Below the pieces are notes generated by a model. That model was not told the origin of the DNA, did not search any database, and was given only the letters and a program-made list of their open reading frames with translations. DNA of 38,906 bases, taken from a virus. Below, one piece after another: positions 919-28,195 of this stretch; position 1 is the first letter of the stretch, and every line of letters starts with the position of its first letter. Position numbers and translations under genes: made by a program. Location: the IMG/VR virus record IMGVR_UViG_3300025889_000320, positions 1 through 38,906 of that record, one strand, 5' to 3'.

Positions 919-1209
919 ATGAAAGACTTAGAATCCTATATTGACGAAGCAATCAAAAACATAAGAAGCGACAGGGCTATTACCACAACTCTGCTAATGG
1001 AGTTGATGGAATACATGAAGAAAGACGACGAACGCAAAGAAAAGGTCGGCGTTGTCGCTGCTAAATATGTAGAAACCCTACAAAGATCAAACGAACAACT
1101 TGTCAAAGTAAGTGCCCTCATCCAGAAGAAATCTGAAGGACAAGAGGGTCTGACTGATGAGGACAAGAGCGAATTATTTGATCTTATAAAGGAATCTGGC
1201 AATGGCTAA
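919..1209 (+). CDS. small helical protein of unknown function
   Basis: 96 residues, highly charged, almost certainly all helix (MKDLESYIDEAIKNIRSD... to ...DKSELFDLIKESGNG), with no membrane segment and no domain I recognise. It has no ribosome site; the ATG stands 8 bases after an ACTATTTA octamer. Its 3' end overlaps the next gene by 8 bases (ATGGCTAA), so the spike gene is probably translated by coupling. An ORF of 88 codons on the opposite strand covers the same bases, but gene direction, overlap and amino-acid pattern favour the + frame. Position before the spike gene would suit a chaperone or minor baseplate part; this is a guess. Confidence 0.75.
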   Translation: MKDLESYIDEAIKNIRSDRAITTTLLMELMEYMKKDDERKEKVGVVAAKYVETLQRSNEQLVKVSALIQKKSEGQEGLTDEDKSELFDLIKESGNG

Positions 1210-10600: not shown

Positions 10601-13432
10601 CAAGCTACGGAAGTGGATGTCCAAAATTATATTACTTTGGCAAATCTAATCAGAAAGATACCTGATTTAACACAACAAATACCGCCTCTTTTTTCTGATA
10701 ACAAAGGAAATAAGGGTATTTTGTCGGGCTTGCCAAACCCAACAATAGAAGATGCTCTTGAGACAACCCTCAAAAACATGCTTTTGGGAACAAATAAGCT
10801 ATTAAAAGAAGAGAGTATAAGATTTACCAACCCAAAATCCAGAGTTATGGTAAAAATGGACTACAATAGAGAAGAACTATTAAACAATAGCCCGTTGGGA
10901 AATTTATTTTTTGCTCCCCTAAATCCGCTAACATTTGCACTAGGTGGCGTCACGGCATGGGCAGCATTTATTTATGGAGGCGGAGGCACAGAGTTGTCTG
11001 AAAATGATTTTTGGTCTCCTTGGTTTCCAATAGCAGATAAGATGGCTCCATATGCAAAAGATGCAAGAGGTGTTGATGAAATATTGACAGATTTTGGATT
11101 AGATTTTACAAAATATATAACGACATATGGCGATAACAACATTAGAATCAATATACAAATGCCTGAATTTCAAGGAAGCAAGGTGAGGACAGATTTGCAG
11201 TTTTCTCCTCCTGATACAAATGAAGATGGAAATCTAATATATACTAATAACTTAAGATTGTTTTTTGAAACACCACAGATTTTAGAAGGGACATTTAGTC
11301 TCAATGATAATGATAGTGGCGGTGAGACCTCAAAAAAAGTTTCAGATTCATTAGCACCAATACTTGATAAATATCCCCTTAAAGATGGCAATATTCCTCC
11401 ACAAAATCAGTATTTTGCCTCTTTGTTGGCGGATAAAATATTGCCAGATTCAAACATGCTAAGTTCTGAAGCTAAAAATAAATTTATTAATGAAACATAC
11501 AATATTTTTGCAATAGATTTGTATAAAAATATTTTCTCCTCTATTTTGGCTGGAATAGCAGAAACCATAGGAAATTCAGAAACTCTAGATGATTATGAAA
11601 TAGATCTTTTTGATGAACTAATACAAGAAAATCCACTTGGAACAGGTTGGATTTTGGTTCTTAGGCAGTTATGGGATCTAGCACAAGTAGATATTAAAGC
11701 TAAAACTACAAAAAAAGAACTAGGTCTTTTAGATTTAACTCCGAATGTTTCAAATCAAGGATTTTCACAAGGCTTGATTGATATGCAAAGAGTATATGAT
11801 ATTTCTAAAGAAAAATACGATTTTGCAGATTATGAAGATCCAAACTCAAATGAGTTGGGAATGCCACAGTTCGCAATGTTGGAAGGTATTGTGTCTGCTT
11901 ATATACAAATGGTTGCTGGAGAAGTATCTTTAAGGGCAATAACAACTATATGTAAATTTCCAAAATATATTATAACCCAAGGAGATATGTTAACAGAGCT
12001 TATATTAAAAATTCTGAACCAAATGCTTGATGAATCTGGATTTAAGAATGATTTCTCATTTATTTGTATGACGCTATTATCTAGGAGGAGTGAGTTTAGA
12101 TTTAAAGATCCAAATAAAAACCTTCCCGGAAACTCTGGGTTCATATTGGACAAAAAGAATGGTACAGATGTGGAAATCAATTCTTCTGATGATGCGGTGA
12201 GGTTTTTGATAAAAGAAAACTTGGAATATCCGTTAGATTTTATTTATTCTAGATTGGGAATATTCAAAGGATCAGGGCAAAGCTTTAGTAAAATTTCTCA
12301 AGCAAATCCTCTTGATTTTATCTCATATAATGCCCCAGTATGGGTTCATGATGAGTCACATCAGACAGAATTTGATAAACCGCCAAAAAATCCAGAAAAT
12401 GGTAGCGTATATGATTATCCAAGCTCATTTTTTTCAAATAATAGGTATAAAGAGTTTTTAAATGGAAAGTTTGTAAATCAAATTTATTATGAGGTAGAGG
12501 ATTGGGCTGACAAAGATGAGGCTCAAAACAATGGTGGAATATGGTTATCTTATTTACACGATGAAAACGTTCGATCAAACAAACTTAGAAAAGTTTTGAG
12601 TCAAGATAATTTATTTGAACTAATAGCCTTAACAGCAGACATGGTGACAACAGAAGAGGGAGAACAATACGCAGATGAGTCATTTATTAAGTTTTTCAAA
12701 TCAATAAAGCTTGGAACAAGACTTTGCTATGTGTTTATAACTTCAGAAAGAGAATGGCAAGGATCATCTTCTGGAATCGCAGGATTTGAAGATGTTCAAG
12801 AATTTATAAAACCCTATTCTGATGGGCAATCTGAGACGCTTAAAACAGTTTCAAAAGCCATTGATGATGCTTTGGGTATTAAAGTAGACTCTAATTCTGT
12901 TGGGTCAACATACGAAAAAATAGACGAAAACTTTAAACAATACATAGATTTAAATAAGAGTATATTAGTTATTGAAGACGATTTATCATTGAAAGATGAA
13001 AAATCTAAAACGAGTAAAAACCCACCAGCAAAAACATATATATTTCCTGTTATCGAATCTTCAGTTGATATGATGAACAATGATACTGGGCAAAGTTTTG
13101 AGTTATTTAATGAGCCAGTCAGTGTAATCAAAGAAATGGGCGAAGAAAACATTGTCCAGTTCTTGTTTGAACCATATGGTCAAGGTTTATTGGTGAAAAA
13201 TCTAACTAATATTGTTTTATCAGATGAATATTCTGCTTTGATGATGTATTCATTTCCAACAAAAGATATGATCGATCTTTTCGTGGTAACAAACGTGGCT
13301 ATTGTTTCGGCAGACAAGAAGATAAAAGATGCATTTGTCGCAACAAAAAGTCAAATAAAAACATTATTTGAGAGTATTTATAACATGGTAGGACCTGCTA
13401 AATACAAAAAACTAAAAGGTCCATATGGCTAG
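4646..13432 (+). CDS. Giant virion protein (2928 residues), probable baseplate component
   Basis: One uninterrupted reading frame between the spike and gp25 genes. Function is not recognised. Residues about 1140-1217 (YVLVNQGQKVSPRAKATLKASPG..., then WVNGVGDYNLVRV and GYIEINDI) look like a bacterial SH3-type domain, and a second short segment near 1265 (PYYHKEEGNWWYTVEL) is similar in style. About 12 cysteines are clustered between residues 1545 and 1975 (for example CKC, CSFC, CPELTC), uncommon in phage tail proteins. Residues 1782-1825 form a long hydrophobic helix region (LIDALLKALEYILAQILVELFATLLELLL) and about 2090-2115 is a second hydrophobic stretch. The first 1100 residues are rich in Tyr, Asn, Asp and Pro and look beta-structured. 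Position suggests a hub or wedge scaffold. A tape measure is unlikely because long coiled-coil helix is lacking. No Shine-Dalgarno site is evident. Confidence 0.75.
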   Translation: MSNKDFYFKVKPKDSVKVTAAASIDIPFIDLHKRGDWHHGFGIPYQQSEPKGYFDEDINNYEGDISKALLSAVGINENTYSNATTENKEKIANKILRRELTAEKIFQDQYRAPVSFFAMYKSWDSTKFTNFVLENLVGKALTQALLYNYFGYPVSNIGRVQGRSGYAQNGQDPEHMEVFPPGSQTSYYDAQQLMGLLPSFGSSDKNTIDQTTFDFQTAIANLNTLLTENDAENSPDLDLRITQILAGSYGEGSAAGNSFAAVYSNSKVDSISPSNHLYDLDDWIYVPSYPWDFVPRLSTNSPYFKQEKWNTNFDAPDQNLTPTHAKMYMPGLESSVYPSLSGLMGGSQGVFTKKWYYGESAKDGEPEKYFKYSNLVSALKLVPPGIDPSQVQDYLDNPHKTLNEVIKNVFKYVAHVVPQNIRHAGPKPTIKEPGTDAVTGENKPEACEDLLSASQLEINRVVSGSFFELGSIPPVLNHSTTSKENYLGAKDPKDYNDYPGGALQDIYNNVLWGKGVSSLFTYNRYDKYGKDPNEYVIKNAVSKISSDIKEYSYKFGLPPTTFIGTENPYLFGTPADEQEAKRFAVIPRNKQSIITMFDSLPDFTRQTDLNGGNNLYIDFNKGTSEIFNYYNSNDIDPNNPLEVTRYITSLWLAYHFGSLPTNFYATLDKVYAHKEFKIDIPGATGGSDGWKGIYADVLPYILQYLTADRQAMLSYLKTSNMNISGLSGYSGIATGNSKNHFLNAFLDFFGNIKDVGEDATGTLYDVENILGAGDSNSVLFAAKNNVPYYVNHKSPLIFPVWDYKQNAGTISSYSHGNLSNIKWPKLINTNGNKGYKYDEEDSPWTPILEQDPFLKQKERKCVPDWCKSLQVYPTVKKEPLTYGFINPYFTLGTTQLYYGDNHLFTNKYLNDASLGDFSSNENTKNYKDENLSLQQKARPYIVVDYEYDTDIAKNPPPGSAFNEKVLDNFDEDTPTPALTTLTEYAKSTGLYVDWRDGVGSSQNYRNSLLAQATLTYAVDLEIDETKLIIDMIRHGVFAMAGEFDEYQEAGINPYDVFEAVGLNGQGVFYSQDLLSKYENYKSTLEGSLQGIDFSKIPSFLKGEDVSEEMLLAVDLNLPLINQKYDSLTENGLKPTEATSYVLVNQGQKVSPRAKATLKASPGSASRADAFLPNFTVIKVLKQWVNGVGDYNLVRVVDPQSDLNGLEGYIEINDIVSIKKNIFFEDIFGGKNGNLKLANLNEVEGTNGRLSITQMSEGQKAVIPIWWRNEVPYYHKEEGNWWYTVELEDTCVLSKSDLEEKKQQALRKGVQELFYWHNRVITDEQIESFIKTYLTCEIASHYIDIRPGENVKFLLKVGAIYLYAFPSAYKSLSDLKKESSKILTLDTRYYVKHLSQAGYGLNQMYLNILKSEFRVQGVNFMLEAERMDKIPVLFKKLISFNGYTIASEEQNLINIGFDNEFNIIFISYNEGAKEGNEKLLSTGLDYIKQQEPFNVKNTMSLFYHHRQLKNPLLKWQQAIKEIFLDPKPEIIPKEESTLPDIPSSKCKPLTWNFPSWQELLGPIAGQLDDALKLDPRFDLGSFQFSLTDYLPPCPSPPSGKGGALFKGEIETEAERMFFDSFDSLAKMKDLQTGYKEYVGDFMTSAEGLRSIGDKAIDLNSLYDQVLRRVGGLDTIYMKICKCFLDLAGLDTVEVPNFKVDLQGPSAGLNIKPLSYIPSADSNAPANTSITGGQQAGWNKGDEYEYDMGSFGSADALKDSFNNKPTEFDAADLICSFCFEVPDFFLRLPTTNLLDSLIDALLKALEYILAQILVELFATLLELLLRCPELTCPEGVKRVSDYGAQNLNNLLASPGIGDSPAVFESCGVSVTNVNDIEDLLDDISKVLSSGEVLELLDGTSDVHLMKIIQKKVDQYPSIASQLDNTAKTRDFFRCVGFKVPPQKLAEIEDDIIKVYQDPDVCDNIFEKAKDDLRSKCGDLENVDDLVKQATEVDVQNYITLANLIRKIPDLTQQIPPLFSDNKGNKGILSGLPNPTIEDALETTLKNMLLGTNKLLKEESIRFTNPKSRVMVKMDYNREELLNNSPLGNLFFAPLNPLTFALGGVTAWAAFIYGGGGTELSENDFWSPWFPIADKMAPYAKDARGVDEILTDFGLDFTKYITTYGDNNIRINIQMPEFQGSKVRTDLQFSPPDTNEDGNLIYTNNLRLFFETPQILEGTFSLNDNDSGGETSKKVSDSLAPILDKYPLKDGNIPPQNQYFASLLADKILPDSNMLSSEAKNKFINETYNIFAIDLYKNIFSSILAGIAETIGNSETLDDYEIDLFDELIQENPLGTGWILVLRQLWDLAQVDIKAKTTKKELGLLDLTPNVSNQGFSQGLIDMQRVYDISKEKYDFADYEDPNSNELGMPQFAMLEGIVSAYIQMVAGEVSLRAITTICKFPKYIITQGDMLTELILKILNQMLDESGFKNDFSFICMTLLSRRSEFRFKDPNKNLPGNSGFILDKKNGTDVEINSSDDAVRFLIKENLEYPLDFIYSRLGIFKGSGQSFSKISQANPLDFISYNAPVWVHDESHQTEFDKPPKNPENGSVYDYPSSFFSNNRYKEFLNGKFVNQIYYEVEDWADKDEAQNNGGIWLSYLHDENVRSNKLRKVLSQDNLFELIALTADMVTTEEGEQYADESFIKFFKSIKLGTRLCYVFITSEREWQGSSSGIAGFEDVQEFIKPYSDGQSETLKTVSKAIDDALGIKVDSNSVGSTYEKIDENFKQYIDLNKSILVIEDDLSLKDEKSKTSKNPPAKTYIFPVIESSVDMMNNDTGQSFELFNEPVSVIKEMGEENIVQFLFEPYGQGLLVKNLTNIVLSDEYSALMMYSFPTKDMIDLFVVTNVAIVSADKKIKDAFVATKSQIKTLFESIYNMVGPAKYKKLKGPYG

Positions 13433-13457: not shown

Positions 13458-13859
13458 ATGGCTTATTATGCTCCAAAACTACCATTATCAAGAGATGTAA
13501 ATACAGGCTACAAGATGCTTGACAATCTAAAGGATGTTGTTAAGCAAAACTTCAAGATGTTAATATTAACAGTCCCCGGAGAGAGGATAATGAATCCTAG
13601 TTTTGGAGTTGGTTTGTATAAATATTTATTTGAACAAATTCCTTCTGTAGAGCTTCAAGAAGCAATAAAAGAAGATATATTTAATCAATGTTCTGCCTAC
13701 CTCCCTTATATATCAATCAGAGATATAGTGTTTGAAACAGGAGCAGGCTCACCATATACTACTGGGTATAATACACTTTATGTAAAAGTAGAATATTATA
13801 TAAAAACTCTAAATGCTTCTGATGTTTTGGAAGTTAGCGTTTCTGAAAGCACTTTTTGA
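13458..13859 (+). CDS. Baseplate wedge protein, gp25 / GPW family
   Basis: 133 residues, the normal length for the family. Residues about 28-62 (VVKQNFKMLILTVPGERIMNPSFGVGLYKYLFE) are the hallmark of T4 gp25 and P2 gpW, including the conserved PGER (G41-E42-R43) and NPxFG. In T4, gp25 sits at the inner baseplate, joins the wedge core (gp6, gp7) to the first sheath ring and starts sheath polymerisation. A TAGGA at 13442-13446 with about 11 bases to the ATG may serve as ribosome site. It is followed by the gp6 homologue, the usual W-J order of contractile tails. Highly confident. Confidence 0.92.
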   Translation: MAYYAPKLPLSRDVNTGYKMLDNLKDVVKQNFKMLILTVPGERIMNPSFGVGLYKYLFEQIPSVELQEAIKEDIFNQCSAYLPYISIRDIVFETGAGSPYTTGYNTLYVKVEYYIKTLNASDVLEVSVSESTF

Positions 13860-13902: not shown

Positions 13903-15708
13903 TTGAGCAACACATACGAAACTCCTCCAATATCATATACCAGTAGAGAGTTTGCTTCTATTAAAGCAGATCTAGTGTCGTATGCAAAAAGATATTATCC
14001 AGACACAACAGCAGACTTCTCAGAAGCATCATTCGGATCAATGATGGTTGATATGGTTGCCTATGTTGGAGATGTATTATCTTTTTATGTTGATTATCAA
14101 ACAAATGAATCATTCTTGGATACAGCCATTGAATACAACAATGTTTTTCGATTAGCAAGACAAGCAGGATATAAGCCTTCAAAATCTTTCACTTCAACAG
14201 GGGAAGTTACACTATATATCGTAGTTCCTACAACAACCGCTGGTGGCACAACTTCGCCAGATATGTCGTATGCTCCTATAATAAAAAACGGATCTAAATT
14301 TATATCATCTGGTGGTGTTGTTTTCACATTGACGGAGGATGTTGATTTTTCTAACCCGGCTAACGAAATGGTAGTAGCATCTTCTAACTCAAACAACGAT
14401 GCTGTTGCTTCATATGCAATAAAAACCTATGGAAAATTAGTATCCGGAGAATATAAAATAGAATATATTCCTGTTGGTGAGTTTATGAGATATCCAAGAT
14501 TTGTTTTGGCAGACAGGAATATTGTAGAAGTTATTTCTGTTGTAGATTCACAAGGAAATAAATACTACGAGGTAGATCACTTATCTCAAGATATTGTGTA
14601 TGAAAATGTGAAAAACACTGCCTCAGATAAAAGTATGGCACCATATGTTGTAAAGCCAAGACCTGTGCCAAGAAGATATACTGTTGAAATGATCGGATCA
14701 AATACATTTTTGCAGTTTGGGCATGGATCTGACAAAAATTTAACAAATGAAACAATAACAGATCCATCAAAAATAGTATTAAAACAACATGCAAAAGATT
14801 ATATAGCAGATAAAACCTTCGATCCAACCAAACTTTTAGAAACAGATAAGCTCGGAGTAGCCCCCTCAGACACTGTATTGACAGTTATTTATAGATCAAA
14901 TACTGCAAATAATGTCAATATTGCAACAAATACATTAACAGATACAGCGGATTTAGAGTTTTCATTTAGGAATGTTTCTTCTTTATCAACATCTAAAGTT
15001 ACAAATGTCATTTCAAGCTTAGATTTTGAGAATGAAAAGCCGATTGTTGGTGACACATCTGTAACAACAGCGCAAGAAATAAGAACTAGGGCAATGGGGT
15101 TTTATTCTGCTCAAAATAGAGCAGTTACAAAACAAGATTATATATCCTTAATCTATAATATGCATCCAAAATTTGGATCCGTTAAAAGAGCGGCGATATA
15201 TCAGGACACAAACTCTTTCAAAAGAAATCTTAATCTTTATGTTTTATCGGAAAACTCGATTGGAAATCTTGTACAAGCCACTCCTACGATTAAGAATAAT
15301 CTGAAGTCTTGGTTATCTAGATACAAGATGATCAATGATACCATCGATATATTAGACGCAAAAGTGATTAACTTGTCTATAGAATATGAAGCAATGATAG
15401 ACAAAGAAGAAAATAAATATGGAGCATTAGATATTATTAATAACCGATTGGCTTCTTTCTATTCAAATAAGTTTGATATTGGAGAGCCATTTATGTTGTC
15501 CGATGTGTATGGAATATTAAAAGAAATCCCATTCGTGCTAGATGTAAAAAATATTTATATTAATCTTCAGTCAGGCTTTCAATATTCCAATGTTTCATTT
15601 GATATCGAAAGAAATACTTCTAGTGATGGAAGGATGATTGTTTGTCCAATGGATCACATTTTTGAAATCAGATTCCCAACTTCAGATATAAGAGGATCAA
15701 TAGTTTAA
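13903..15708 (+). CDS. Baseplate wedge protein, gp6 / Baseplate_J family
   Basis: 601 residues, compared with about 660 for T4 gp6. The N-terminal segment, residues about 8-77 (ISYTSREFASIKADLVSYAKRYYP... then ADFSEASFGSMMVDMVAYVGDVLSFYVDYQTNESFLDTA), is the classic start of T4-like gp6 proteins. Residues about 385-450 (TTAQEIRTRAMGFYSAQNRAVTKQDYISLIYNMHPKFGSVKRAAIYQD) match the conserved J-family region. gp6 dimers link neighbouring wedges into the baseplate ring and change shape on contraction. Start is TTG with a good ribosome site. The stop overlaps the ATG of the next gene (TAATG). Highly confident. Confidence 0.93.
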   Translation: MSNTYETPPISYTSREFASIKADLVSYAKRYYPDTTADFSEASFGSMMVDMVAYVGDVLSFYVDYQTNESFLDTAIEYNNVFRLARQAGYKPSKSFTSTGEVTLYIVVPTTTAGGTTSPDMSYAPIIKNGSKFISSGGVVFTLTEDVDFSNPANEMVVASSNSNNDAVASYAIKTYGKLVSGEYKIEYIPVGEFMRYPRFVLADRNIVEVISVVDSQGNKYYEVDHLSQDIVYENVKNTASDKSMAPYVVKPRPVPRRYTVEMIGSNTFLQFGHGSDKNLTNETITDPSKIVLKQHAKDYIADKTFDPTKLLETDKLGVAPSDTVLTVIYRSNTANNVNIATNTLTDTADLEFSFRNVSSLSTSKVTNVISSLDFENEKPIVGDTSVTTAQEIRTRAMGFYSAQNRAVTKQDYISLIYNMHPKFGSVKRAAIYQDTNSFKRNLNLYVLSENSIGNLVQATPTIKNNLKSWLSRYKMINDTIDILDAKVINLSIEYEAMIDKEENKYGALDIINNRLASFYSNKFDIGEPFMLSDVYGILKEIPFVLDVKNIYINLQSGFQYSNVSFDIERNTSSDGRMIVCPMDHIFEIRFPTSDIRGSIV

Positions 15709-17273
15709 TGGCAATAAAAAGATATATAGCAAATGCAGACAATACCATAACAGATGCATTCCAATCTGACCTTGCCACTCGTGGAACTGGGTCAAACATG
15801 GGTGCAGCAGATGTTTTGGAATCTTTTTATATTTTTGGTCAAGTTTCTAAGGGAATAGGAACATCATTAAGTTCGGCAGAAAAATCCAGAATATTAGTTC
15901 AATTTGATACAGGACAAATTAATACAGATCGCCTGAATCAGCTAATCCCGGAATCTGGTAGCGTTTCATGGCATTTAAATCTCTATAATGCGCCACACGC
16001 TTTCCAAACTCCAAAAGACTTTTCAATGGAGGTCCAAGCAGTATCATCTTCATGGCAAGAAGGCAGAGGTCTTGATATGGATAGTTATCAAGATCAAACA
16101 TATGAAGGAACAGGCTCTAACTGGATCAGAAGAGGTGCAACTGATGATGGATATACTACTTGGACAGCCGAAGGCGGAGATTTTTTGGATAACGAATTAA
16201 TACTAACATCTAGTGGTTATCAAAATTATTCTGCTTCTTTCGTAGATGGAACTGAAAATCTCTCCATTGATGTTAGTGACTTGGTTGAAAAGTGGCTTAA
16301 TGGAGATACAGAAAACTATGGATTTGGCATAAAATTAAAAAATATTAATGAAACAGGGTCCCATTCATATTACACAAAGAAGTTCTTCTCCAGATCAAGT
16401 GAATATTTTTTCCTTAGACCAAATCTTGAAGCAAGATGGGATGACAGTAAAAAAGATAGTGCAGGAACATTTTTTGCAAGTAGCTCATTGGCTAGTGGTC
16501 AAGATAACCTCAATACTTTGTATTTATATAACTATGTAAGAGGAAAACTACAAAATATACCAGAATCTGAAAATCATTCTAATCCATATATCTTATATTT
16601 AAGTGCGTATTCTAGTTCAGCAGGAAATATTTATGACAAGCTTCCGTTGCCAGTTGGCGGAGATGTTGTTGAAAATGCGGATCTTAATGTAACAGGTGGC
16701 ATATTAATAGGTCCAGAGGGCGCAGTAGCGGGTATTTATACAGCATCATTTGCAATGAGTCATTCATTGGAGTCTATATATCCAGTATGGCACTATGAAG
16801 ATTTGGTGACATATCATACTGGTGCAGAAATAACTGTTAACAGTATTGATGCTTTTAACTATAATCCTACTGAAAAATACTTAACAACTATCGATAATCT
16901 TAAACCATCTTATAGTAAAGATGAGAATGCTAGATTTAGATTATTTATAAGGGAAAGAAACTGGAATCCAAACAACTATACAGTTATGCAAGCCGAATTA
17001 AAACCAAAAATCATAGAAGATGCATATTATTCTTTGTATAGGGTTAGTGATGGCTATGAAGTTATGCCATTCGGAACAGGGAGTTTAACACCTGAATCTG
17101 TTGGTTCAACCAGCACATATAGTAGATTGTCATATGACATGTCAGGGAACTATTTTGATTTGAGCATGAACCTTTTACAGCCCGGATATCAATATGGTGT
17201 AAGATTCGCTTATTATATTAATGGGTCTTATAAAGAGCAGGAAGAAGTATTTAAATTTAAGGTTGAAGAGTAA
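15708..17273 (+). CDS. Virion structural protein with DNRLRE-like domain
   Basis: 521 residues. Residues about 20-245 follow the pattern of DNRLRE-type beta-sandwich domains: RILVQFD near 63, SSSWQEGRG near 115, a W-x-x-GA segment, then LSIDVSDLVEKWLNG...NYGFGIKL near 185-210 and a closing SSEYFFLRPNLEARWDD. These domains are found in bacterial surface proteins and in phage tail proteins. The rest, about 270 residues, is beta-rich and ends in a short Ig-like strand set (YDMSGNYFDLSMNLLQPGYQYGVRFAYYINGSYKEQEEVFKFKVEE). The gene is coupled by TAATG junctions on both sides, between gp6 and the gpI-like giant, which argues for a baseplate or fibre-attachment part. Exact role unknown. Confidence 0.7.
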   Translation: MAIKRYIANADNTITDAFQSDLATRGTGSNMGAADVLESFYIFGQVSKGIGTSLSSAEKSRILVQFDTGQINTDRLNQLIPESGSVSWHLNLYNAPHAFQTPKDFSMEVQAVSSSWQEGRGLDMDSYQDQTYEGTGSNWIRRGATDDGYTTWTAEGGDFLDNELILTSSGYQNYSASFVDGTENLSIDVSDLVEKWLNGDTENYGFGIKLKNINETGSHSYYTKKFFSRSSEYFFLRPNLEARWDDSKKDSAGTFFASSSLASGQDNLNTLYLYNYVRGKLQNIPESENHSNPYILYLSAYSSSAGNIYDKLPLPVGGDVVENADLNVTGGILIGPEGAVAGIYTASFAMSHSLESIYPVWHYEDLVTYHTGAEITVNSIDAFNYNPTEKYLTTIDNLKPSYSKDENARFRLFIRERNWNPNNYTVMQAELKPKIIEDAYYSLYRVSDGYEVMPFGTGSLTPESVGSTSTYSRLSYDMSGNYFDLSMNLLQPGYQYGVRFAYYINGSYKEQEEVFKFKVEE

Positions 17274-20200
17274 TGTCAAATTCAAATGGTATCAAGAATC
17301 TTTTTAATAAAACAAAAGTTGTATCTTCTTCTAGCTTAAATGATATAGCGAGAAAGATAGAATCTCCAGAGTATGTTCAAGAGTTCTTGGAAGATAGAAA
17401 AAGATTTTTTCCAAATGTTGATTTTTCAAATCCAATAAACTTTGCTAGATTTGGATCTGCTGAAGAATACTATAAAAAATCCATTGAAAATATTTATAAA
17501 ACCTATCCATATGATGGTTCTTTAAAAGAAAAATATGAATGGCATAATGATTCTTCATATTTGGACAACTATATTTTCGAGCATGAATATCCTAGAACTA
17601 CTGGCTATATAACACTTGGACAAAACTGGGGATCGATTAACTCGTCTGATACTGTAAATGCTACAGCAGACGGAGATTCTATTTATAAAAAATCAACAAC
17701 ACCACAATATATTTATGTAAAAGGCGGTCCAAACCCAGCTTCTCATTTGACTTATGAGTTAGATAATCCGCTTGAATCGCCAGATTATAAAAAGAAAAGA
17801 TTCAAAGCAAACTATTATAATACCACAAGCAGTCAAGACCAGAATTTAAATATTGATGGAACAAGTGGAAACACAATAGAATTTTGGTTGAAACTGCCAT
17901 CTAGTCCAGAAACTAGCCAAACTTCTCCAGCACATGCTTATTTCGATTTATGGAATAATGAAACAATCGGCGATCACACATATGGTCGTATATTGGTTGA
18001 GACGATATTGGATGTTGATGGTGGAGGAAGCCCAGATGGATCTTATCTGGATGATTCAATATTTTACGTTAGTTACGCCTCTGGATCATCCGGAGTCCAA
18101 AGAGCTAAGATAGGACCTTCGACATTCCCATCGAGCGAAAATATAACTTTATCTGACTGGAATCATTATGCATTTGTGATGCAAAATAACCTCACTGGAT
18201 CAGACCATCTTCTTTTAAAGATGTATGTAAATGGTATTCTCATTGACACTGTGCATACTGGTTCACAAATACAAGCAGTTGGGACGGGTCCTTTCAATGC
18301 TAATATTGGAGCATACCGTGGTGGACCAACCACAGCCCTTGCTGCGGCAGGTGTTGGAAACGGTCATGGATCTTTATCTGGGTCTTCTATTGATGAATTT
18401 AGGTTTTGGAAAACTGCAAGAAACTCTGAGCAAGTTGGCTTACATTGGTTTAAGCAGGTTGCTGGCGGAACAAACAGCGATTTTGGAAATAATACATCAA
18501 AATATAGTGGATCTTTAAATCCTGTTGATTTAGGTGTTTACTACAAGTTTAATGAAGGAATAACCGGAATAGCCAACTTAGATAGCAATGTCCTAGATTA
18601 TTCTGGTAGGGTTTCCAATGGTTCTATTCAAAATTATAATGCTTCTCCAAGTATGAGATCTACTGATTCTGCTATTGTAGTAGCCGGAGCAGCAGAAAAA
18701 GAATTTAAAGATCCAATCTTATATAAGAACCACCCAAGTATTACAACTTACTACAACGAATCTCTTTTAAAGGGATTGGAATACGACAATCGAAACTCTA
18801 TGGGCATGTACAGAATGATGCCACAATGGATGTTGGATGAGGATTCTCAAAAAGATGGATTTAAGTTAAGAGAACTTACGCAAATAATGTCAAGTTACTT
18901 TGATGAGTTGTTTATTCAAACGAAAGAAATGTCAAAACTTAAAGACATTACTTATGTTAGCGGAAGTTTGACAGGAAGTTTTTATAAACCTCTTCCATTT
19001 GCGAATAGATTATTGACTAGTCATGGATTTGCAGCACCAGAACTTTTCGCAAATGCAGATGTTTTGGCAGCTTTAGGTAATAGAGATAGGGAAAGAGAAT
19101 ATGAAAAAACTTTATTTGATGTAAAGAATCAACTCTATACAAATGTATATAACAATCTTTCCGCAATCAATAAATCAAAAGGAACTGAAAAGTCAATAAG
19201 AAACTTACTCAGAAGCCTTGGTGTTGATACGGAACTATACTCTATTAACTTTTATGCGAATAATGCTGAAGTAACACTTAATCAGTCCATTCTTCCTGTA
19301 ACAGTGGAAAAGAATTTTGTTGATTTTACAATGACAGGAAGTTTTGGAGGGACTGTATATCAAAGTTCAGCTTCTTCAAATACAAATTCAGTTACATTTT
19401 TGACTGGTAGTGATAATCAAAGCGGCGGCTTTGATAGAGAAATGGGCTTTACTGTTGAAACTGAAGTTGTTTTTCCTCGCCAGTTAAAATATGAAAATCC
19501 AGCTTTTGGACAAAGAGAATATATTCCACTAACTGCTTCCTTGTTTGGTATGCATACAGCAGAAGGTCCAACAATGACAGATGTTGGAGATACCACATGG
19601 GCTACAGATGACTGTGCTAACTTCCAAGTATTTGCAGTAAAAAATGATTATAATAGAAATGGATTAAATGTTGTAGATGATGAAGTTTACTTTGTGTTAA
19701 CAAGCACTAATGGCGGAGTTTTCAGCACTATACAAACAGAAAAGTTCACAGATGTATATGAAAATCAAAAATGGACTTTCGCTGTAAAAGTTTTACCAGA
19801 GACTTACCCAAACTTAGGCTTTGTCTCTGGCACGACTGGTCATAGAATAGAATTTCATGGATATAGCGCAATCGGAGATCAGATTGTAAATTCTTTTAAT
19901 TTATCAAGTAATATATCACAAGCTGATGGGGCAAAGTTTTTATCCAGAAAGAAAAGAATATATATTGGAGCGCACAGACAAAACTTCACAGGATCTGTCT
20001 TGCAAAGCACAAATGTTAAAATATCTGCATGTAGATATTGGGCATTGCCTTTGGAGACAGACGAGATTATAGCCCATACAATCGACGCATCTAACTATGG
20101 ATTGTTTGCGCCACAAGAGAATGCCTATTTATTCCAAGATTTTAAAATAAATGTCCCAAAAATGGACACATTAGCTCTGAACTGGGAGTTTAGCACACTG

Positions 20201-23200
20201 ACAGGATCAGACTCTAATGGTGATTTTGAAGTTCCAGACTTGAGTTATGGAACTGGCGACAACAGATATGGTTCAAGCTTGTCTGGATTGTTAGAAAAGC
20301 AGCACACAGGTCGTGGCTATGGTTTTGTTTCTAATGATACATCGTGTATAACAAAAGACTTTTTGTATGCCTATAAACAACAGGTGCCTGATAACTTGGA
20401 TATTTCTGACACAATCAAGGTTCTTGATAGGGATGACGAAATGTTCACTCCGAGAACCAAGCCTGTCAAGTTTTCAATGTCGATTGAAAAGAGCATGTAT
20501 GAAGTTATATCCGAAGAAATGCTCAATTTTATGGCTGCTTGTGTTGATGCAAGTGCTTTAGAAACTTTAGTTGGTCGAGGAGTTAATAAATACAGGGATA
20601 AATACAAAGCTTTAGAAAAAGTAAGGAATCTATTCTACGAAAAAATATCCAATACACCAGATTTAGATAAATATTTGGAATATTATTCTTGGCTCGATGG
20701 CGCAATATCTGAAATGATTGGTTCTATTGTTCCAATGTCTTCTGGGTTTAAAGACATTGAAAATGTTGTAGAGAGCCACGTTTTAGAAAGAAATAAATAC
20801 CAACATCGCTTTCCAACAATGGAGTTCAAGTCGTCTGATCCAGAAGGGATAATCAAAGGTATCAATGAGCTTGTATATGATTGGGAATTTGGACATGCAC
20901 CATACCCTGAAACTGTTGGTCGCCACGCCACCGGGACACAAGAGTGTCTTCCAATTTTTTCTTGTGCAGTAACAACTCCGATCATCTTTACAAGCACTAC
21001 CGACATTAATAGTGCTGCGTCTAGAAATGGCGAGCACATACAGTTTGATGTTTTGGCAGCATCAGATAACCCAACAGATACAATCTTAGTTTCTTTTGTG
21101 TCAATTGGCACACCACGAACTCAAATATCCATTCAGGTTACACCAAATGATGGAACATACAACAGTGGAATACCTGTCAATATCACATCAGCAGAGATTG
21201 TTGAGTTGATTAATAACGGGTCTGTTGCTGGAAAAAATGTAACTATTACAGATTCAAGCAGTGTTCGCACTTTGCAAACAGCTACAGGTGGTGATGGAAC
21301 AAACCTTGCTAATGGCGGCGAAGGTGACAGTTCAAGAGCCACTTTTTCTGGAGGAGTTAATGCGGGAAGTCAATATAAAAACTGTAACTGGTGGAATAAA
21401 AAAGCCTTAAGAAGCGAATCTTATTTAGAGATAGGAGACTCAGATGTTGATTTTGGCAGAATGAACATACATTCTGCCTCCTTACAAGTCTTTAATAGAG
21501 ATTTTAATAAGCCATATAAAATGTCCTTAAGGGAAGAGGGCTTAAAAACAAGATTAAAAAAGAAATCTGTTGTTTTATCTGAACTTAAGCCATTTGATAA
21601 CTCTAGAAGTATCACTTTTGATACAACGACTTTTGTATCTAGTAGTCAAGATTGCACAGATGATTTAAAAATAAATCCAAATTTAAAAAGAAAAGCAGAT
21701 TTTCAAGTTCAGTTGTCAGATGGAACAAATACACAATCAAAATATTCTGGTGATTTAATCGTACCTTACTCGTTTTATTCCTCTTCTGTTAGCAATCCCG
21801 CAACTGGAGTACCAACTGGATATCAAGTGGGTTTTGAACACTTAAGGGACTATTATGTTGATACTAAAGAAGTTCCAATGCAAGGTCCATTTACACAGCA
21901 GCACGTCGGAGGAAATCAGCATAGAAATGTTGGGCTCGTATACAAGCCAATACAACTAAATGGACCATCTGATCCGAGAAAAGATTATGTTCCACAAGCG
22001 TGGTATGCACTTGCAACATTGGCGGGAGGTCATTTATTTTATACAATACTTAATCCAAGTTACTTCGGAGCAGATTTTACGAGAGCTAGCTTTACAAGAG
22101 ACTTTATTGCAAAAAGACCAGTAAATATAAAGAACATTAAAACTGTTACAACTTCCTTCTCAAGTAGTTATGGCTCCGTGTTGCCAATCGGTAACTATGT
22201 TAATAGCTATGAAATGGTTCAAATGGCTGACAGAAGCGTCAATAGCAGATATTTTGTAGAAAACAATGGTATTTCGACTGAAGCTGCTAACTCACCAGTA
22301 GTATTAGGACTAAAAGAATATACAGTGCCAGATAGAGGAAGACATTCTTCTATTATGGTTAACAGATTTTCAGCACCCGGAGGACCAGAAGTTAGCAGCC
22401 CCGGATATCTTGATGCAGAGTCTGAAACTTATTCTGTATACAACGCACTTCCCTATAGAAACTTAACTGTTAGACAGCCACTGAAATCATTCTTGACTGC
22501 TCATTCTCTTTTCGGAGGTTACAGTAGCTTATACGGCGAACCTTCTGCTTCATACCATAAAGTTCAAAGAAATGGTGCAAAAAGAATAGAATACACTATA
22601 GACAAGGTTTATGATCCGGGATTTGCTGTATCGACGGCTAGTGCTTATGACAACTACTGGGTTCAACATATAATCCCGCAAAGTGATCTACAATATTCGT
22701 GGATTACGGCATCAGCAGTTTCTTTTCCATTCGGATATTCTCAGCCAGACCCAAGCAATGCTAGCGAGGCTGCAACAGACATTACATTTGTTGGTGCGAG
22801 TGATTTCGGAACATATGGATCGGTGCCCAGATATTATGGACTACCGGAGGCTAATGGAGCCTCTAGCTGGACTCCAATAGATTTTGTTGGTCTAAACAAT
22901 GTTTTTACTGCTGACTCAACACAGTTTGGAGACAATACTTTAGAACTTTCACTCAACGATCTCAATAATACAGTCGTGACACCAGATGGTCTTCCAGCAG
23001 TATTAAATGCGGGTCTTTTATTATTAAACGGACCTTATGGACACCCATCTTGGAAACAAGTAAGGCAGTCTTACAATCCTATTGTAAGATACATGCACAA
23101 AAACAATGTTTATTCTATCCTTAAGGAAACAAAGCTTGGACCCGGACCAGCAGGAGGTCTTGTTTACTCAAAGCAGTTGATCAACTATACTGAACCACCA

Positions 23201-26200
23201 GTATCGTTTAAAAATCACCCGCTTATTCATGATTTTGTATTGGACACCAATGTTGAGATTATACTAAAAAGCACCTACCAAAATAACCTTCAGAGGTTTG
23301 GAAACCCAGCCGTGACCAATGTATTGAACTATTCTGGTAGATACAAGGGCGAAGAGATTTACGATGATCTTAAAAGGATATATATCGATGGGGATTTAAA
23401 CACAGAACAAAGTTCAATAAAGAAATTTAACTCTATGAAATACAAAGAGACAGTGTTTCCGATGGATAAAAACACTGGTCTTGGAAAAGTTAGAGGAAGA
23501 GAAAACTACACTGTTTCTAGTGGATCTTCTGATTTTAACCTTGCTCTTGGAGAATCTGTAGCATTCTGGAAGAATAATATAAAAGAAAGACATAGATCTG
23601 ACGCCATAGCAAAGAATGCTTCAAGCGATATTATAACAAGTGGAAGTGCTTATCTCGGGTTACTTGACTTAAGTATTTGGCCACTAAATGCAACCGAGCC
23701 GTTTTTTGATTTATATCAAGCTACTAGTTCTGTTGATTTGGGGCAGGGATTTGGTGGAGAAACTCTAGACGGTCATTATTTAGCACCTCTTGGTGTCAGC
23801 GGAGGAACTTTAAACTCCACATATGAGCCAAGATTTAATAATGTAGCCGAAAATGGAGAGTTGTCTCATGCTGGTTATATTTATAACTTGTTGTTGCCGG
23901 GGATACAAGGTAGATCTAGATACAATGGCGCAGCTACAGCTTCTGCACCAATAGATAGGGGATATTTAACTGGATCTACCACAATATCACCTTCGGCATC
24001 TCTTCAGTTTGAGTATCCAAACCTAGTTCCAAGTGGAACATCGGAGCATTATAGTGATGAGTGGTTAGCGGCAACATATGCTTCAAACAAACAAACACTT
24101 ATTCCATCTGGAAATCTTCACCTGATTCCGCCATATAAGACTGCCGAAATATCTGGCAGAGCACCTTGGTTTAATTCTTACGAAGATTACTCCGAAGATA
24201 TCAGGAGAATGGCAAAAGAATATTCAGTATTGCCAGAATATAAAGTATCTGATTATATTGATCACTATTTGGAAAACGGAATCAAAGCAGATACAAACAA
24301 CTTCTTAAAGCTTGAAGGAAACACATTATCGCTAGATAGTGCAAATACTACTGGTGGGGAAATAAATAATCAGTTCTTTAAAGTTTATTCACATAGTGAT
24401 TTCTTATCAAGCTTTAAAGTATTTAAAGAAGATCACAGTAAGAATTCAACAGGAAAGTTTAGAACAGTCAAGATTGATTGTCATGGTATAAAGAAGTTGT
24501 TACCATATCAAGGCTTTTACCCTGCTCTTAGATCTATACAACTCGGAGCTTTGTTTTCATCATCTTTTGGTAAGGAAGAATATTTAGATGGGTCGTCACT
24601 TACTGAAAATCCAGCAATCGAAAGATTGGCAGCACTTTATCAGCCATTCTTCGCACCCGGAGTATTTTATAATACTATAAAATCGGGCATTGCAGTAAGC
24701 TATCCCATTCACACAGAAAAGATTGATAGTAGCAACAGTTTAATGCAAGGTGATGGCACCACTGTTTCCGGTAAAAATGCTCCAAAAGGATATTATTTAC
24801 AGCCCGGAACAGGAACAATAGGACCTAGATTTGCATGTAATGTAATAACAGATTTCCCAACATCAGAAATACCGTTTGAGGCAATATTAGATCCAAGCAA
24901 AGGTCTTTCAACAAGTAAAAGTATGTATTTTGTTTACCCACATATGAGTGGGAGCGTTCACAGAAATACCTATGCAGACGGATTCTATTTAAATCAAAGC
25001 GAAACTTCAAAATATCCAGCATCAACAGGTCAAAATATAAATGCTGTTAACCCAAGAGATGGTCTTAGGGTGCGCTGGAAAGGGACAGGAGACATAAACT
25101 ACATATTAGCAGCAAACAACTTTTTTGCAGAAACTGAAAACTTCTTTTTGGAACAAAGAGCACCAGTTAACTTTGTGTCCAAGCCAGAAAACAAATTCAG
25201 ACCCATGAAAGCTGGAACAAAATATTATATGGATATTGTCTTATATAAGACAGACAAGTTCATGTCTTATGAAGTTCCCTCTGGGTCTTTTGACTACAAC
25301 GTTTATCCGTATAAAGATCCTTCAAATCGGGATGACAGAAATAAAGTTATTCATGAAATAGGTGACGGAAAAATGGTTTTGGCTCCTATGAGTGTTAGAG
25401 GGATGCACTATGGACCCCCGTATGCGTTTTCTACTTATTTTATGGGATTATCTGGAACAGGAAGCGTTGGAGACGGTGTGCAGGTTAATATGGCTTTAGA
25501 AGACCCAGCATATGCCCCGCATTGCCCACCTTATTTTTATGGTGTTTCTAGAGCAAGGGTTGTATTTGATCCAGCATTGGCCGATACTAGTTTGGCAACT
25601 GGAGATTCTAGAAAGTTTAGCTTAGAAGAAATATTTGGTTATGCTAGAATTAACTCCGTGTATTCTAACGATTATGATACTTTGGATGGATGGTTAAGGT
25701 ATTCTACAGACTCAATATACACAAACACTCCAGCGTCAGTTGGTCAAATGCACATAACCTCTTCTGTTGACATATTTAAGCAAAAGAATACAAAACTTTT
25801 TAATTACGAACCTGTTCCACAAGCAACTGTGGATGCTTTTGGGAACACGCTTTTTGTGCCAACTTCTGTTCAAGATTATCCGACAGAAGGTCTAGACAGG
25901 CAGTGGGTTATCGAATCTAGATTTGAGTGCCCTTCTATTAATGTGTATGATATGGACACTGAAGCTTTAGGAGCAGGATCTCCCGGCGATGGTCGCAATG
26001 CAGCCCCCGGCAGCGAGAGATTGTATACAAAAGGGATATGGAAAGGTTTCGGAAGTCCTCCTACTGCTAAAGAAGGTATTTTCTTAGAACTAAGAGAAAG
26101 CTACCCAGAGTTTTTAGGGGTTGATGGCGATAATCCTGTAGCATCCAGATCGGGGCTTGGATACCCAGTTGGTTCTCTTATAAAAGCTTGCGGCTTTGGT

Positions 26201-27133
26201 AATAATAGTAAAAGAAAGTTAGGAGAGATAGCTTCAAAACGAAAAATGTATGAAGCAGTTGTTGCAGTGCCAGTAAAAAGAGATGGAACTTTTTATGGTA
26301 TTGAGCGAAAAATCTTTTTAAAACAGCTTTTCAATGTAAATAATGGAAAACCGGCAGTTGCAGAAGGTGATTTTGGATCAACATCAAACATAGATGAAAC
26401 ATCAATCAGCGATATGATTGGGAAAATGAAGAAATATAACATTCCTCCACAAATGAACTTCGTTGAGTTCGGAGACATTGATCCATTTGTGATGTATATT
26501 TTTGAATTTGAGCATGAGTTTAGTAAGAATGACCTTTCCCTTATCTGGCAAAATGTAATGCCCGATATAGCTGTAACTGCTGAAAAACAAACATATTCTT
26601 TAGAACATCCCATTGGAAGTCAGTTTGAGTTTTATGGAAAAGGAAAAAATGCTTTCCAACCAGAAACAAGATGGATGATCTTCAAGATTAAACAGAGAGC
26701 AAAAAACAACTATAGTTCTATTTCAGTCGCCTCTGATGAAAAAAACGGATTTAATCAAGCAGTTATTGGTACAACAAAACAAATGGGTCTTTTTATAAAC
26801 GGAGAATCAGATCTTAGATATAGCTATAACTGGCCATATGATTTTTGTTCACTAGTGGAGTTAGCAAAAGTAGATGTCGAATCAACTTTTGGACCAGAAA
26901 CAGAAGATATAGCGGAAGAGACTGAGAGAGTCGAAACAATAACAAAAGTTTATGATCGAAACTTGCAACAATATATAGAAACAGACAAAAGGTTACAAGA
27001 AACTAAGAGAGAGTCTTTGAAGCAAACTCCGAGGTTTAACGACACTAGAGTTGGCAATCCATTTCCACAACAAGGTACAACAACTAGTGGCAATGGATTT
27101 GTTGGCGGAACAACCAAAAAAACAATCAAATAA
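17273..27133 (+). CDS. Giant baseplate/adsorption protein (3286 residues) with two LamG-like domains and a gpI/gp7-like motif
   Basis: One intact frame, coupled by TAATG to the DNRLRE gene. Residues about 175-395 form a LamG/concanavalin-like domain (IEFWLKL, SDWNHYAFVMQN, LKMYVNGILIDTVHTG, IDEFRFWKTARN) followed by YKFNEG near 425. Residues about 630-650 (INKSKGTEKSIRNLLRSLGVDTEL) resemble the KGT...I..LL...G motif of tail protein I of P2, the counterpart of T4 gp7 in the wedge core. Residues about 720-945 are a second LamG-like domain (GFTVETEVVFP, QKWTFAVKV, KRIYIGAHRQNF, ACRYWALPLETDEI). Residues 1233-1360 look like a separate inserted beta domain. The region about 3077-3200 (FEFEHEFSKNDLSLIWQNVMP, then MIFKIKQRAKNNY, YSYNWPYDFCSLVEL) recalls C-termini of other large phage structural proteins. 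Probable job: wedge core fused to carbohydrate-binding modules for host contact. The gpI link is an inference. Confidence 0.75.
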   Translation: MSNSNGIKNLFNKTKVVSSSSLNDIARKIESPEYVQEFLEDRKRFFPNVDFSNPINFARFGSAEEYYKKSIENIYKTYPYDGSLKEKYEWHNDSSYLDNYIFEHEYPRTTGYITLGQNWGSINSSDTVNATADGDSIYKKSTTPQYIYVKGGPNPASHLTYELDNPLESPDYKKKRFKANYYNTTSSQDQNLNIDGTSGNTIEFWLKLPSSPETSQTSPAHAYFDLWNNETIGDHTYGRILVETILDVDGGGSPDGSYLDDSIFYVSYASGSSGVQRAKIGPSTFPSSENITLSDWNHYAFVMQNNLTGSDHLLLKMYVNGILIDTVHTGSQIQAVGTGPFNANIGAYRGGPTTALAAAGVGNGHGSLSGSSIDEFRFWKTARNSEQVGLHWFKQVAGGTNSDFGNNTSKYSGSLNPVDLGVYYKFNEGITGIANLDSNVLDYSGRVSNGSIQNYNASPSMRSTDSAIVVAGAAEKEFKDPILYKNHPSITTYYNESLLKGLEYDNRNSMGMYRMMPQWMLDEDSQKDGFKLRELTQIMSSYFDELFIQTKEMSKLKDITYVSGSLTGSFYKPLPFANRLLTSHGFAAPELFANADVLAALGNRDREREYEKTLFDVKNQLYTNVYNNLSAINKSKGTEKSIRNLLRSLGVDTELYSINFYANNAEVTLNQSILPVTVEKNFVDFTMTGSFGGTVYQSSASSNTNSVTFLTGSDNQSGGFDREMGFTVETEVVFPRQLKYENPAFGQREYIPLTASLFGMHTAEGPTMTDVGDTTWATDDCANFQVFAVKNDYNRNGLNVVDDEVYFVLTSTNGGVFSTIQTEKFTDVYENQKWTFAVKVLPETYPNLGFVSGTTGHRIEFHGYSAIGDQIVNSFNLSSNISQADGAKFLSRKKRIYIGAHRQNFTGSVLQSTNVKISACRYWALPLETDEIIAHTIDASNYGLFAPQENAYLFQDFKINVPKMDTLALNWEFSTLTGSDSNGDFEVPDLSYGTGDNRYGSSLSGLLEKQHTGRGYGFVSNDTSCITKDFLYAYKQQVPDNLDISDTIKVLDRDDEMFTPRTKPVKFSMSIEKSMYEVISEEMLNFMAACVDASALETLVGRGVNKYRDKYKALEKVRNLFYEKISNTPDLDKYLEYYSWLDGAISEMIGSIVPMSSGFKDIENVVESHVLERNKYQHRFPTMEFKSSDPEGIIKGINELVYDWEFGHAPYPETVGRHATGTQECLPIFSCAVTTPIIFTSTTDINSAASRNGEHIQFDVLAASDNPTDTILVSFVSIGTPRTQISIQVTPNDGTYNSGIPVNITSAEIVELINNGSVAGKNVTITDSSSVRTLQTATGGDGTNLANGGEGDSSRATFSGGVNAGSQYKNCNWWNKKALRSESYLEIGDSDVDFGRMNIHSASLQVFNRDFNKPYKMSLREEGLKTRLKKKSVVLSELKPFDNSRSITFDTTTFVSSSQDCTDDLKINPNLKRKADFQVQLSDGTNTQSKYSGDLIVPYSFYSSSVSNPATGVPTGYQVGFEHLRDYYVDTKEVPMQGPFTQQHVGGNQHRNVGLVYKPIQLNGPSDPRKDYVPQAWYALATLAGGHLFYTILNPSYFGADFTRASFTRDFIAKRPVNIKNIKTVTTSFSSSYGSVLPIGNYVNSYEMVQMADRSVNSRYFVENNGISTEAANSPVVLGLKEYTVPDRGRHSSIMVNRFSAPGGPEVSSPGYLDAESETYSVYNALPYRNLTVRQPLKSFLTAHSLFGGYSSLYGEPSASYHKVQRNGAKRIEYTIDKVYDPGFAVSTASAYDNYWVQHIIPQSDLQYSWITASAVSFPFGYSQPDPSNASEAATDITFVGASDFGTYGSVPRYYGLPEANGASSWTPIDFVGLNNVFTADSTQFGDNTLELSLNDLNNTVVTPDGLPAVLNAGLLLLNGPYGHPSWKQVRQSYNPIVRYMHKNNVYSILKETKLGPGPAGGLVYSKQLINYTEPPVSFKNHPLIHDFVLDTNVEIILKSTYQNNLQRFGNPAVTNVLNYSGRYKGEEIYDDLKRIYIDGDLNTEQSSIKKFNSMKYKETVFPMDKNTGLGKVRGRENYTVSSGSSDFNLALGESVAFWKNNIKERHRSDAIAKNASSDIITSGSAYLGLLDLSIWPLNATEPFFDLYQATSSVDLGQGFGGETLDGHYLAPLGVSGGTLNSTYEPRFNNVAENGELSHAGYIYNLLLPGIQGRSRYNGAATASAPIDRGYLTGSTTISPSASLQFEYPNLVPSGTSEHYSDEWLAATYASNKQTLIPSGNLHLIPPYKTAEISGRAPWFNSYEDYSEDIRRMAKEYSVLPEYKVSDYIDHYLENGIKADTNNFLKLEGNTLSLDSANTTGGEINNQFFKVYSHSDFLSSFKVFKEDHSKNSTGKFRTVKIDCHGIKKLLPYQGFYPALRSIQLGALFSSSFGKEEYLDGSSLTENPAIERLAALYQPFFAPGVFYNTIKSGIAVSYPIHTEKIDSSNSLMQGDGTTVSGKNAPKGYYLQPGTGTIGPRFACNVITDFPTSEIPFEAILDPSKGLSTSKSMYFVYPHMSGSVHRNTYADGFYLNQSETSKYPASTGQNINAVNPRDGLRVRWKGTGDINYILAANNFFAETENFFLEQRAPVNFVSKPENKFRPMKAGTKYYMDIVLYKTDKFMSYEVPSGSFDYNVYPYKDPSNRDDRNKVIHEIGDGKMVLAPMSVRGMHYGPPYAFSTYFMGLSGTGSVGDGVQVNMALEDPAYAPHCPPYFYGVSRARVVFDPALADTSLATGDSRKFSLEEIFGYARINSVYSNDYDTLDGWLRYSTDSIYTNTPASVGQMHITSSVDIFKQKNTKLFNYEPVPQATVDAFGNTLFVPTSVQDYPTEGLDRQWVIESRFECPSINVYDMDTEALGAGSPGDGRNAAPGSERLYTKGIWKGFGSPPTAKEGIFLELRESYPEFLGVDGDNPVASRSGLGYPVGSLIKACGFGNNSKRKLGEIASKRKMYEAVVAVPVKRDGTFYGIERKIFLKQLFNVNNGKPAVAEGDFGSTSNIDETSISDMIGKMKKYNIPPQMNFVEFGDIDPFVMYIFEFEHEFSKNDLSLIWQNVMPDIAVTAEKQTYSLEHPIGSQFEFYGKGKNAFQPETRWMIFKIKQRAKNNYSSISVASDEKNGFNQAVIGTTKQMGLFINGESDLRYSYNWPYDFCSLVELAKVDVESTFGPETEDIAEETERVETITKVYDRNLQQYIETDKRLQETKRESLKQTPRFNDTRVGNPFPQQGTTTSGNGFVGGTTKKTIK

Positions 27134-27160: not shown

Positions 27161-28195
27161 ATGGAATTTTTTGACAGAAAACAAGAAGTAATAGATATTA
27201 AGCTTACGCAATACGGCAAAATGAAACTATCTGAAGGTAAGTTTAAGCCATCTTATTACGCTTTTTTTGATAATGATGTGATATACGACACAAATCATGG
27301 AGAAAATGGCTACGAAGAAGTCCAAAAAGAGTCAGAAGATAGAATCAAATCAGCCCTAAGACCAAAAGCTCAAACTATAACTTACGGCTTGGAAAGCATA
27401 ATAACGAAGATATTAAAAGGATTTCAGACAAAAGAAGATCAAGGGTTAGTAGCAAGTGCTATAAATGAAACTTTATATGCCATATCCAATCCGCCACCAA
27501 ATAAGCTGAATAATGATACACTAGTCAACCCACTTGGAACTTCTGATTTAAATTCCTTTTATACTCCGTATTGGAACTTAAATAGTTTGGTTGGAGAAGT
27601 AAAAACATCTTCTGCAAACTACACTGGATCACTTGATATAGAAAGAATACCTCAAGTAAATATAGACATATTTTATGATACATTTATAAGTATGGATAAT
27701 ATAGAGAATCTAGATGAGGATGATTCGTTGCAAGTAGATAAAAATGGACAGTTATATATGCTAAATACTGACGCTATAGATATAGAATATAACGACACTA
27801 GTGGATACGCTCCTAGAGTATATGATGATGGATCCAAAATAGTAATAAGAAGGGGATTTTCTTTAATAGATTTAATAGAGGGATATACAAAAGACAATAT
27901 AGAAAACTTTGACATTGAAGTTTTCCAAGTAAAAACCGAGAAAAACAATGGTATAGAAGAAGAACACTTACAAAAGATGAAGTTCAGAAACAATCAATAT
28001 TTGAATCTAAATGATAACCAATTGTTCAGCCCAGAACTAACTAATAGTATACAGATTGATTCTAACTATGTCGAGTATTACTTCGAGATTAAGTTCGATA
28101 ATGAAATAGAAGACGTTGTAAGGTCGTTCGCACCAGATATAAATGCTGTTTCCGAACTACCAGAAAATAACTTTGAGGAGCCTTGTGAAGATTAA
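27161..28195 (+). CDS. Virion structural protein, paralogue of the 35529 gene product at its N-terminus
   Basis: 344 residues. The first 45 residues (MEFFDRKQEVIDIKLTQYG, then KMKLSEGKFKPSYYAFFDNDVIYD) align with those of the 321-residue protein encoded at 35529 (MSFLDNSGDIILDAVLTDAG, then RARLAQGDGSFKIVKYAFGDDEIDY): shared F-x-D, VI(L)D, LT, G(K/R), L, G, YAF, DD and Y. This N-terminal block is, to my memory, common in marine phage structural proteins and may be an attachment domain. The rest is acidic and unrecognised. No ribosome site; an ACTATTTA octamer lies 5 bases before the ATG. The stop overlaps the next start (TAATG). Function beyond virion component is unknown. Confidence 0.7.
   Translation: MEFFDRKQEVIDIKLTQYGKMKLSEGKFKPSYYAFFDNDVIYDTNHGENGYEEVQKESEDRIKSALRPKAQTITYGLESIITKILKGFQTKEDQGLVASAINETLYAISNPPPNKLNNDTLVNPLGTSDLNSFYTPYWNLNSLVGEVKTSSANYTGSLDIERIPQVNIDIFYDTFISMDNIENLDEDDSLQVDKNGQLYMLNTDAIDIEYNDTSGYAPRVYDDGSKIVIRRGFSLIDLIEGYTKDNIENFDIEVFQVKTEKNNGIEEEHLQKMKFRNNQYLNLNDNQLFSPELTNSIQIDSNYVEYYFEIKFDNEIEDVVRSFAPDINAVSELPENNFEEPCED

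Follow-up and report, generated by a model that had tools for sequence, protein, structure and literature searches.

A giant protein of marine phages with a probable gpI/gp7-type baseplate wedge core, LamG-like insertions and a C-terminal module

In this study, we analysed a virus record of 38.9 kb (38,906 nucleotides, hereafter the window) in which a single uninterrupted ORF encodes a protein of 3286 residues. We propose, with a probability of about 0.78, that this giant protein serves as the gpI/gp7-type wedge protein in a marine phage with a contractile tail, and that insertion and fusion have enlarged it. An earlier note on the same DNA had pointed to a motif near residue 637 with two LamG-like domains around it; the motif was found as KSKGTEKSIRNLLRSLGV (the KGT motif), and to that description we add that the core resumes at residues 1036-1214, with more than 2000 residues after it, and that a conserved module occupies residues 2300-3220.

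Genomic context and relatives

The location given earlier for the giant gene, after gp6 with one gene in between, was confirmed, as the ORF is intact and gp25 and gp6 were identified by Pfam and PHROGs (Table 1). The ATG of the giant gene overlaps the stop codon of the preceding gene (TAATG), its codon composition resembles that of the neighbouring genes, and the closest relative, a separate contig, has an equivalent ORF of 3276 aa within an identical gene order. The giant ORF is real. The order gp25, gp6, intervening gene and giant gene is conserved in the relatives and similar in the named phages, and the giant gene occupies the position of a gpI/gp7-type gene, beside gp25 and gp6. The positional counterpart of the 521-aa intervening gene in Microcystis phage Mel-JY01 matched CBM96 (E=5.5e-5, below the cut-off).

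Table 1. Features of the wedge gene region in the window and domain layout of the giant protein
Feature	Residues	Position	Strand	Evidence or remark
gp25 wedge protein		13458..13859	+	PF04965 E=2.3e-9
gp6 wedge protein		13903..15708	+	phrog_219 E=2.1e-21
Intervening gene, weakly carbohydrate-binding-like	521 aa	15708..17273	+	Disaggr_repeat E=1e-4, below cut-off
Giant gene, probable wedge protein	3286 aa	17273..27133	+	Full-length relatives
N-terminal conserved region with helices	1-165	17273..17767	+	
LamG1 (Laminin_G_3)	192-388	17846..18436	+	Pfam E=2.2e-8; Foldseek matches to concanavalin-A-like domains
gpI-like core, first half	481-690	18713..19342	+	Matches in Immutovirus, Mel-JY01 and LR756508 proteins; PF09684
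KGT motif	634-651	19172..19225	+	PF09684 match 19163-19240
Probable second LamG-like domain (LamG2), inserted in core	691-1000	19343..20272	+	All-beta model; weak hhalign bridge; no Pfam hit
Core, second half, VESHVLERNKY motif	1036-1214	20378..20914	+	Also after the KGT region in Mel-JY01, LR756508 and Immutovirus proteins
Segment, possibly a diverged mobile insert	~1226-1370	20948..21382	+	Mostly missing in L010 and L040 (weak evidence)
Conserved C-terminal module	2300-3220	24170..26932	+	No PDB match

No match was obtained for the giant protein in the PHROG search, nor for its residues 1-1000 in a tblastn search of a phage collection. In scans of IMG/VR, the N-terminal part yielded 110 relatives, 80 of which were kept, and the C-terminal part 56 loci; it must be noted that these loci overlap and that several correspond to one contig. 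The giant-protein design is common to roughly a hundred marine viral contigs, with a common domain order: N-terminus, LamG1, KGT region, LamG2, second half of the core, middle and C-terminal module. A host assignment through genome bins was rejected, given that the bins offered short or low-coverage contigs and a WOR-3 'chromosome' in which the match lies close to runs of N. In the latter (L298, CP070664.1) a piece of the giant gene is joined across an N run to a D12 methyltransferase domain, and it looks like a joined or contaminated assembly.

Several other genes of the window deserve mention. The 2928-aa upstream protein (4646-13432) diverges faster than the wedge genes. An 803-aa protein (1202-3613) matches VanY peptidase weakly (E=0.0043, below the cut-off) and is possibly a baseplate hub enzyme. 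The product of 202-885 weakly resembles a late sigma factor family (phrog_234, E=0.0014) and has relatives in the three named phages. The proteins encoded at 27161-28195 and 35529-36494 have apparently similar N-termini, and L005-L007 match both at the same place.

The wedge core

The only PF09684 (Tail_P2_I) match in the window falls on the KGT motif (residues 631-656), with 12.7 bits (E=0.0024) against a curated cut-off of 20.6 bits, so that Pfam membership cannot be assigned to it or to any of its relatives. In 16 long relatives there were five such matches, four of them on the KGT region, and in the Flavobacterium phage immuto, Mel-JY01 and LR756508 a single one, on the KGT region of LR756508, all below the cut-off. 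In total, six of the seven matches in the window, the long relatives and the three named phages lie on that region. Across the family, PF09684 weakly matches 14 of 69 members, and no other family matches as many. Since no PF09684 match reaches the Pfam cut-off, the homology to gpI would be remote.

Profile-profile comparisons (hhalign) gave matches centred on the KGT motif, with E=0.002 for gpI (0.2-0.3 for its reversed controls) and E=1.6e-4 for the cyanophage proteins at the gp7 position, about two to three orders of magnitude better than the reversed controls (0.2-0.8 overall). For gpI, diverse sequences were used, as the relatives of P2 gpI from viral contigs were 99-100% identical and unfit as a profile. 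A comparison with T4 gp7 had been suggested earlier as well; T4 gp7 gave no significant alignment (E=0.19, no better than the reversed controls). In addition, the family profile matched the same-position proteins of Immutovirus, Mel-JY01 and LR756508 with whole-protein E values of about 1e-14 to 1e-21. These matches form two collinear blocks, one over the KGT region and the other over the second half of the core. Given these two blocks and the resumption of the core after LamG2, LamG2 is an insertion in a two-part core.

Each of the 16 long relatives carries exactly one KGT core per record. The earlier proposal left no room for a separate gpI/gp7 gene elsewhere, and none above the cut-off was found in the window or in the 16 relatives of 119-194 kb. 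PF23786 (Baseplate_wedge) had no match in these 16 relatives and matched two cyanophages weakly. Among the top 50 Foldseek matches of the N-terminal model there were only lectin-like and similar beta folds and no core fold, and PDB profile searches with the N-terminal, KGT, LamG2 and C regions returned nothing meaningful. A match of the KGT profile to IcmE/DotG was discarded as a repeat artefact built from many sub-threshold stretches. Altogether, a gpI/gp7-type wedge core in the giant protein is supported, not proven, by these sequence comparisons.

Shorter versions of the core, of 1265-1336 aa, occur in Flavobacterium and Microcystis phages. In immuto (Immutovirus), gp161 (1265 aa) follows gp25, gp6 and two further genes, and shares with the giant protein the KGT region as well as the core's second half, but it has a different N-terminus, no profile match to the LamG1 and LamG2 regions and no C-terminal module. 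Mel-JY01 WWT39511.1 and its relatives (1308-1443 aa) and the LR756508 protein (1400 aa) share the KGT core, the LamG2-like insert and the second half, whereas LamG1 and the C-terminal module have no match in them. P2 gpI (176 aa) probably has the KGT motif in common with the giant protein and holds a corresponding gene position, while T4 gp7 (1032 aa) corresponds in gene position and is not alignable in sequence. Giants are also found directly after gp6 in cyanophages, namely P-SSM2 gp7 (5195 aa), Syn1_094 (3274 aa) and S-WAM2 gp167 (3446 aa). Around residue 200 they bear a motif of the KGT type (KGI in P-SSM2), and they carry a YHYH domain, with no LamG match in the parts scanned and no match to the C-terminal module. 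Giant proteins of several domains are thus already known from this position, and with cyanophage proteins of 3,274-5,195 aa bearing a similar motif at the same position, size alone is not new. The protein of the window differs from them in its pattern of LamG insertions and in bearing the C-terminal module.

LamG-like domains

Two LamG domains had been proposed, at about residues 175-395 and 720-945. The first is certain from its sequence, with 34.8 bits to Laminin_G_3 (PF13385) against a cut-off of 27.6. The second (about residues 690-1000) is only probable: none of 45 relatives had a Pfam LamG (PF13385) match there, no PDB profile matched, and the best family match was E=0.21 in one distant relative. 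Its region is all-beta in the AlphaFold2 model, which covers residues 15-1214 (mean pLDDT 79.3), and the Mel-JY01-type relatives form a bridge by hhalign to LamG2 (E=2e-5) and to LamG1 (E=7e-5). Foldseek of this model gave 41 PDB matches at E<=0.001, which judging by their names are proteins that contain concanavalin-A-like beta-sandwich domains: pentraxins, LNS domains, polysaccharide lyases, sialidase carbohydrate-binding domains and clostridial toxin receptor-binding domains. The output does not give the matched domain, and these similarities denote a common fold only.

The mean pairwise identity among 83 relatives was 0.446 for the N-terminal region, 0.410 for LamG1, 0.445 for KGT, 0.380 for LamG2 and 0.479 for the second half. 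With respect to the closest relative, identity was 0.85-0.87 in LamG1, 77% in gp6 and from 0.36 to 0.71 in the C-terminal module. Since the conservation of LamG1 and LamG2 comes close to that of the core, neither host-range diversification nor a role as host-specific adhesins is indicated by the sequences. The earlier suggestion that wedge core and sugar-binding receptor modules are one chain is supported for the fusion of a gpI-like core to LamG, and not supported for the receptor-binding adhesin role. Searches of open-access literature turned up no description of LamG in gp7-type proteins. An additional strong Laminin_G_3 is nested in the LamG1 region of two relatives (L063:10415-11677 and L150:5975-7357; E=6e-26 and 8e-26).

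C-terminal module and gene fission

Residues 2300-3220 align in 68 relatives. The predicted structure of this module had a pTM of 0.83 and a mean pLDDT of 77.9; pLDDT was at least 90 in 421 residues and under 50 in 150. Foldseek against the PDB gave nothing at E<1 (best 2.4), and against predicted viral proteins it gave seven strong matches, one of them named uncultured marine virus, with no significant match beyond these seven. The module was not found in the other phage groups examined.

The core and the C-terminal module lie in a single ORF in 91 loci including the window, and 74 of these 91 ORFs are closed at both ends, some being overlapping views of one contig. About 16 distinct contigs encode the module separately, in the gene that follows, and the break site varies; in L062, for instance, the first ORF stops after 1236 aa, just past the core. 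On a midpoint-rooted FastTree tree, parsimony reconstructed fusion as the ancestral state and required six changes, which corresponds to about six independent fissions that separated the module from the wedge gene. Assembly frameshifts may account for some of the splits; three contigs show the in-frame stop of L006. As some relatives encode the module as a separate adjacent gene, its covalent linkage seems non-essential.

A domain of about 113 aa that ends near TDFTGG had 120 matches in 70 ORFs of relatives, inserted at many sites of the giant protein and in neighbouring genes (for example, L131:4979-5320, L008:6868-7212 and residues 1153-1265 of L155). No family matched it above the cut-off.

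Proposed model and alternatives

It is known that gp7, gpI and TssG are equivalent and that gp6 and gp7-type proteins have a 2:1 stoichiometry (PMC6300606). By analogy with the family and with (gp6)2-(gp7)1 of T4, each wedge would combine one copy of the giant protein with two of gp6, which makes six giant copies per baseplate. In the giant protein, the core comprises residues 481-690, which include the KGT motif, and residues 1036-1214; LamG1 separates this core from the N-terminal helices, and the LamG2-like domain lies within it. The two LamG-type modules would be fixed, slowly evolving beta-sandwiches that project and may stiffen the arm or bind a conserved glycan, and the C-terminal module would be a separate folded body, probably forming the outer arm or a site where fibres attach.

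Glycan binding is common among LamG and pentraxin-like folds. As such folds were found in the model, and two relatives have an extra nested LamG, the LamG domains of this wedge protein might be the main receptor-binding adhesins of the phage, in line with the earlier proposal. We consider this unlikely, given that LamG1 and LamG2 are almost as conserved as the core and that, in the comparison with the closest relative, conservation of LamG1 is no lower than that of gp6. It is more doubtful still that the protein is a giant tail fibre or adhesin that merely lies near gp6 and is no wedge component. A large, beta-rich, multi-domain protein bearing a LamG domain would fit such a role, but the gpI-like motif and the two-part core are common to the same-position proteins of other phages, and no alternative gpI-like gene above the cut-off was found in the window or in the 16 long relatives.

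That two genes were fused by an assembly artefact is very improbable. L006 and some 15 other contigs do hold the same content as two ORFs; against this stand the 74 closed fused ORFs, overlapping views among them, the full-length ORF of the closest relative and the inferred ancestry of the fused state. Returning to the enlarged wedge protein, a bolder version, to which we give some credence while leaning against it, is that the C-terminal module is a new fold confined to the marine group and forms a hitherto unseen, wedge-fused outer arm of the baseplate, the LamG domains being fixed parts of the scaffold.

Implications

This analysis defines a widespread family of marine structural proteins which the phage family library (PHROG) does not cover. 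Its confidently predicted C-terminal fold, without a match in the PDB, is a good target for structure determination. If the proposed wedge identity is correct, a conserved wedge protein would tolerate lectin-fold insertions around and inside its core as well as the fusion of a large body, the latter having been repeatedly reversed by gene fission.
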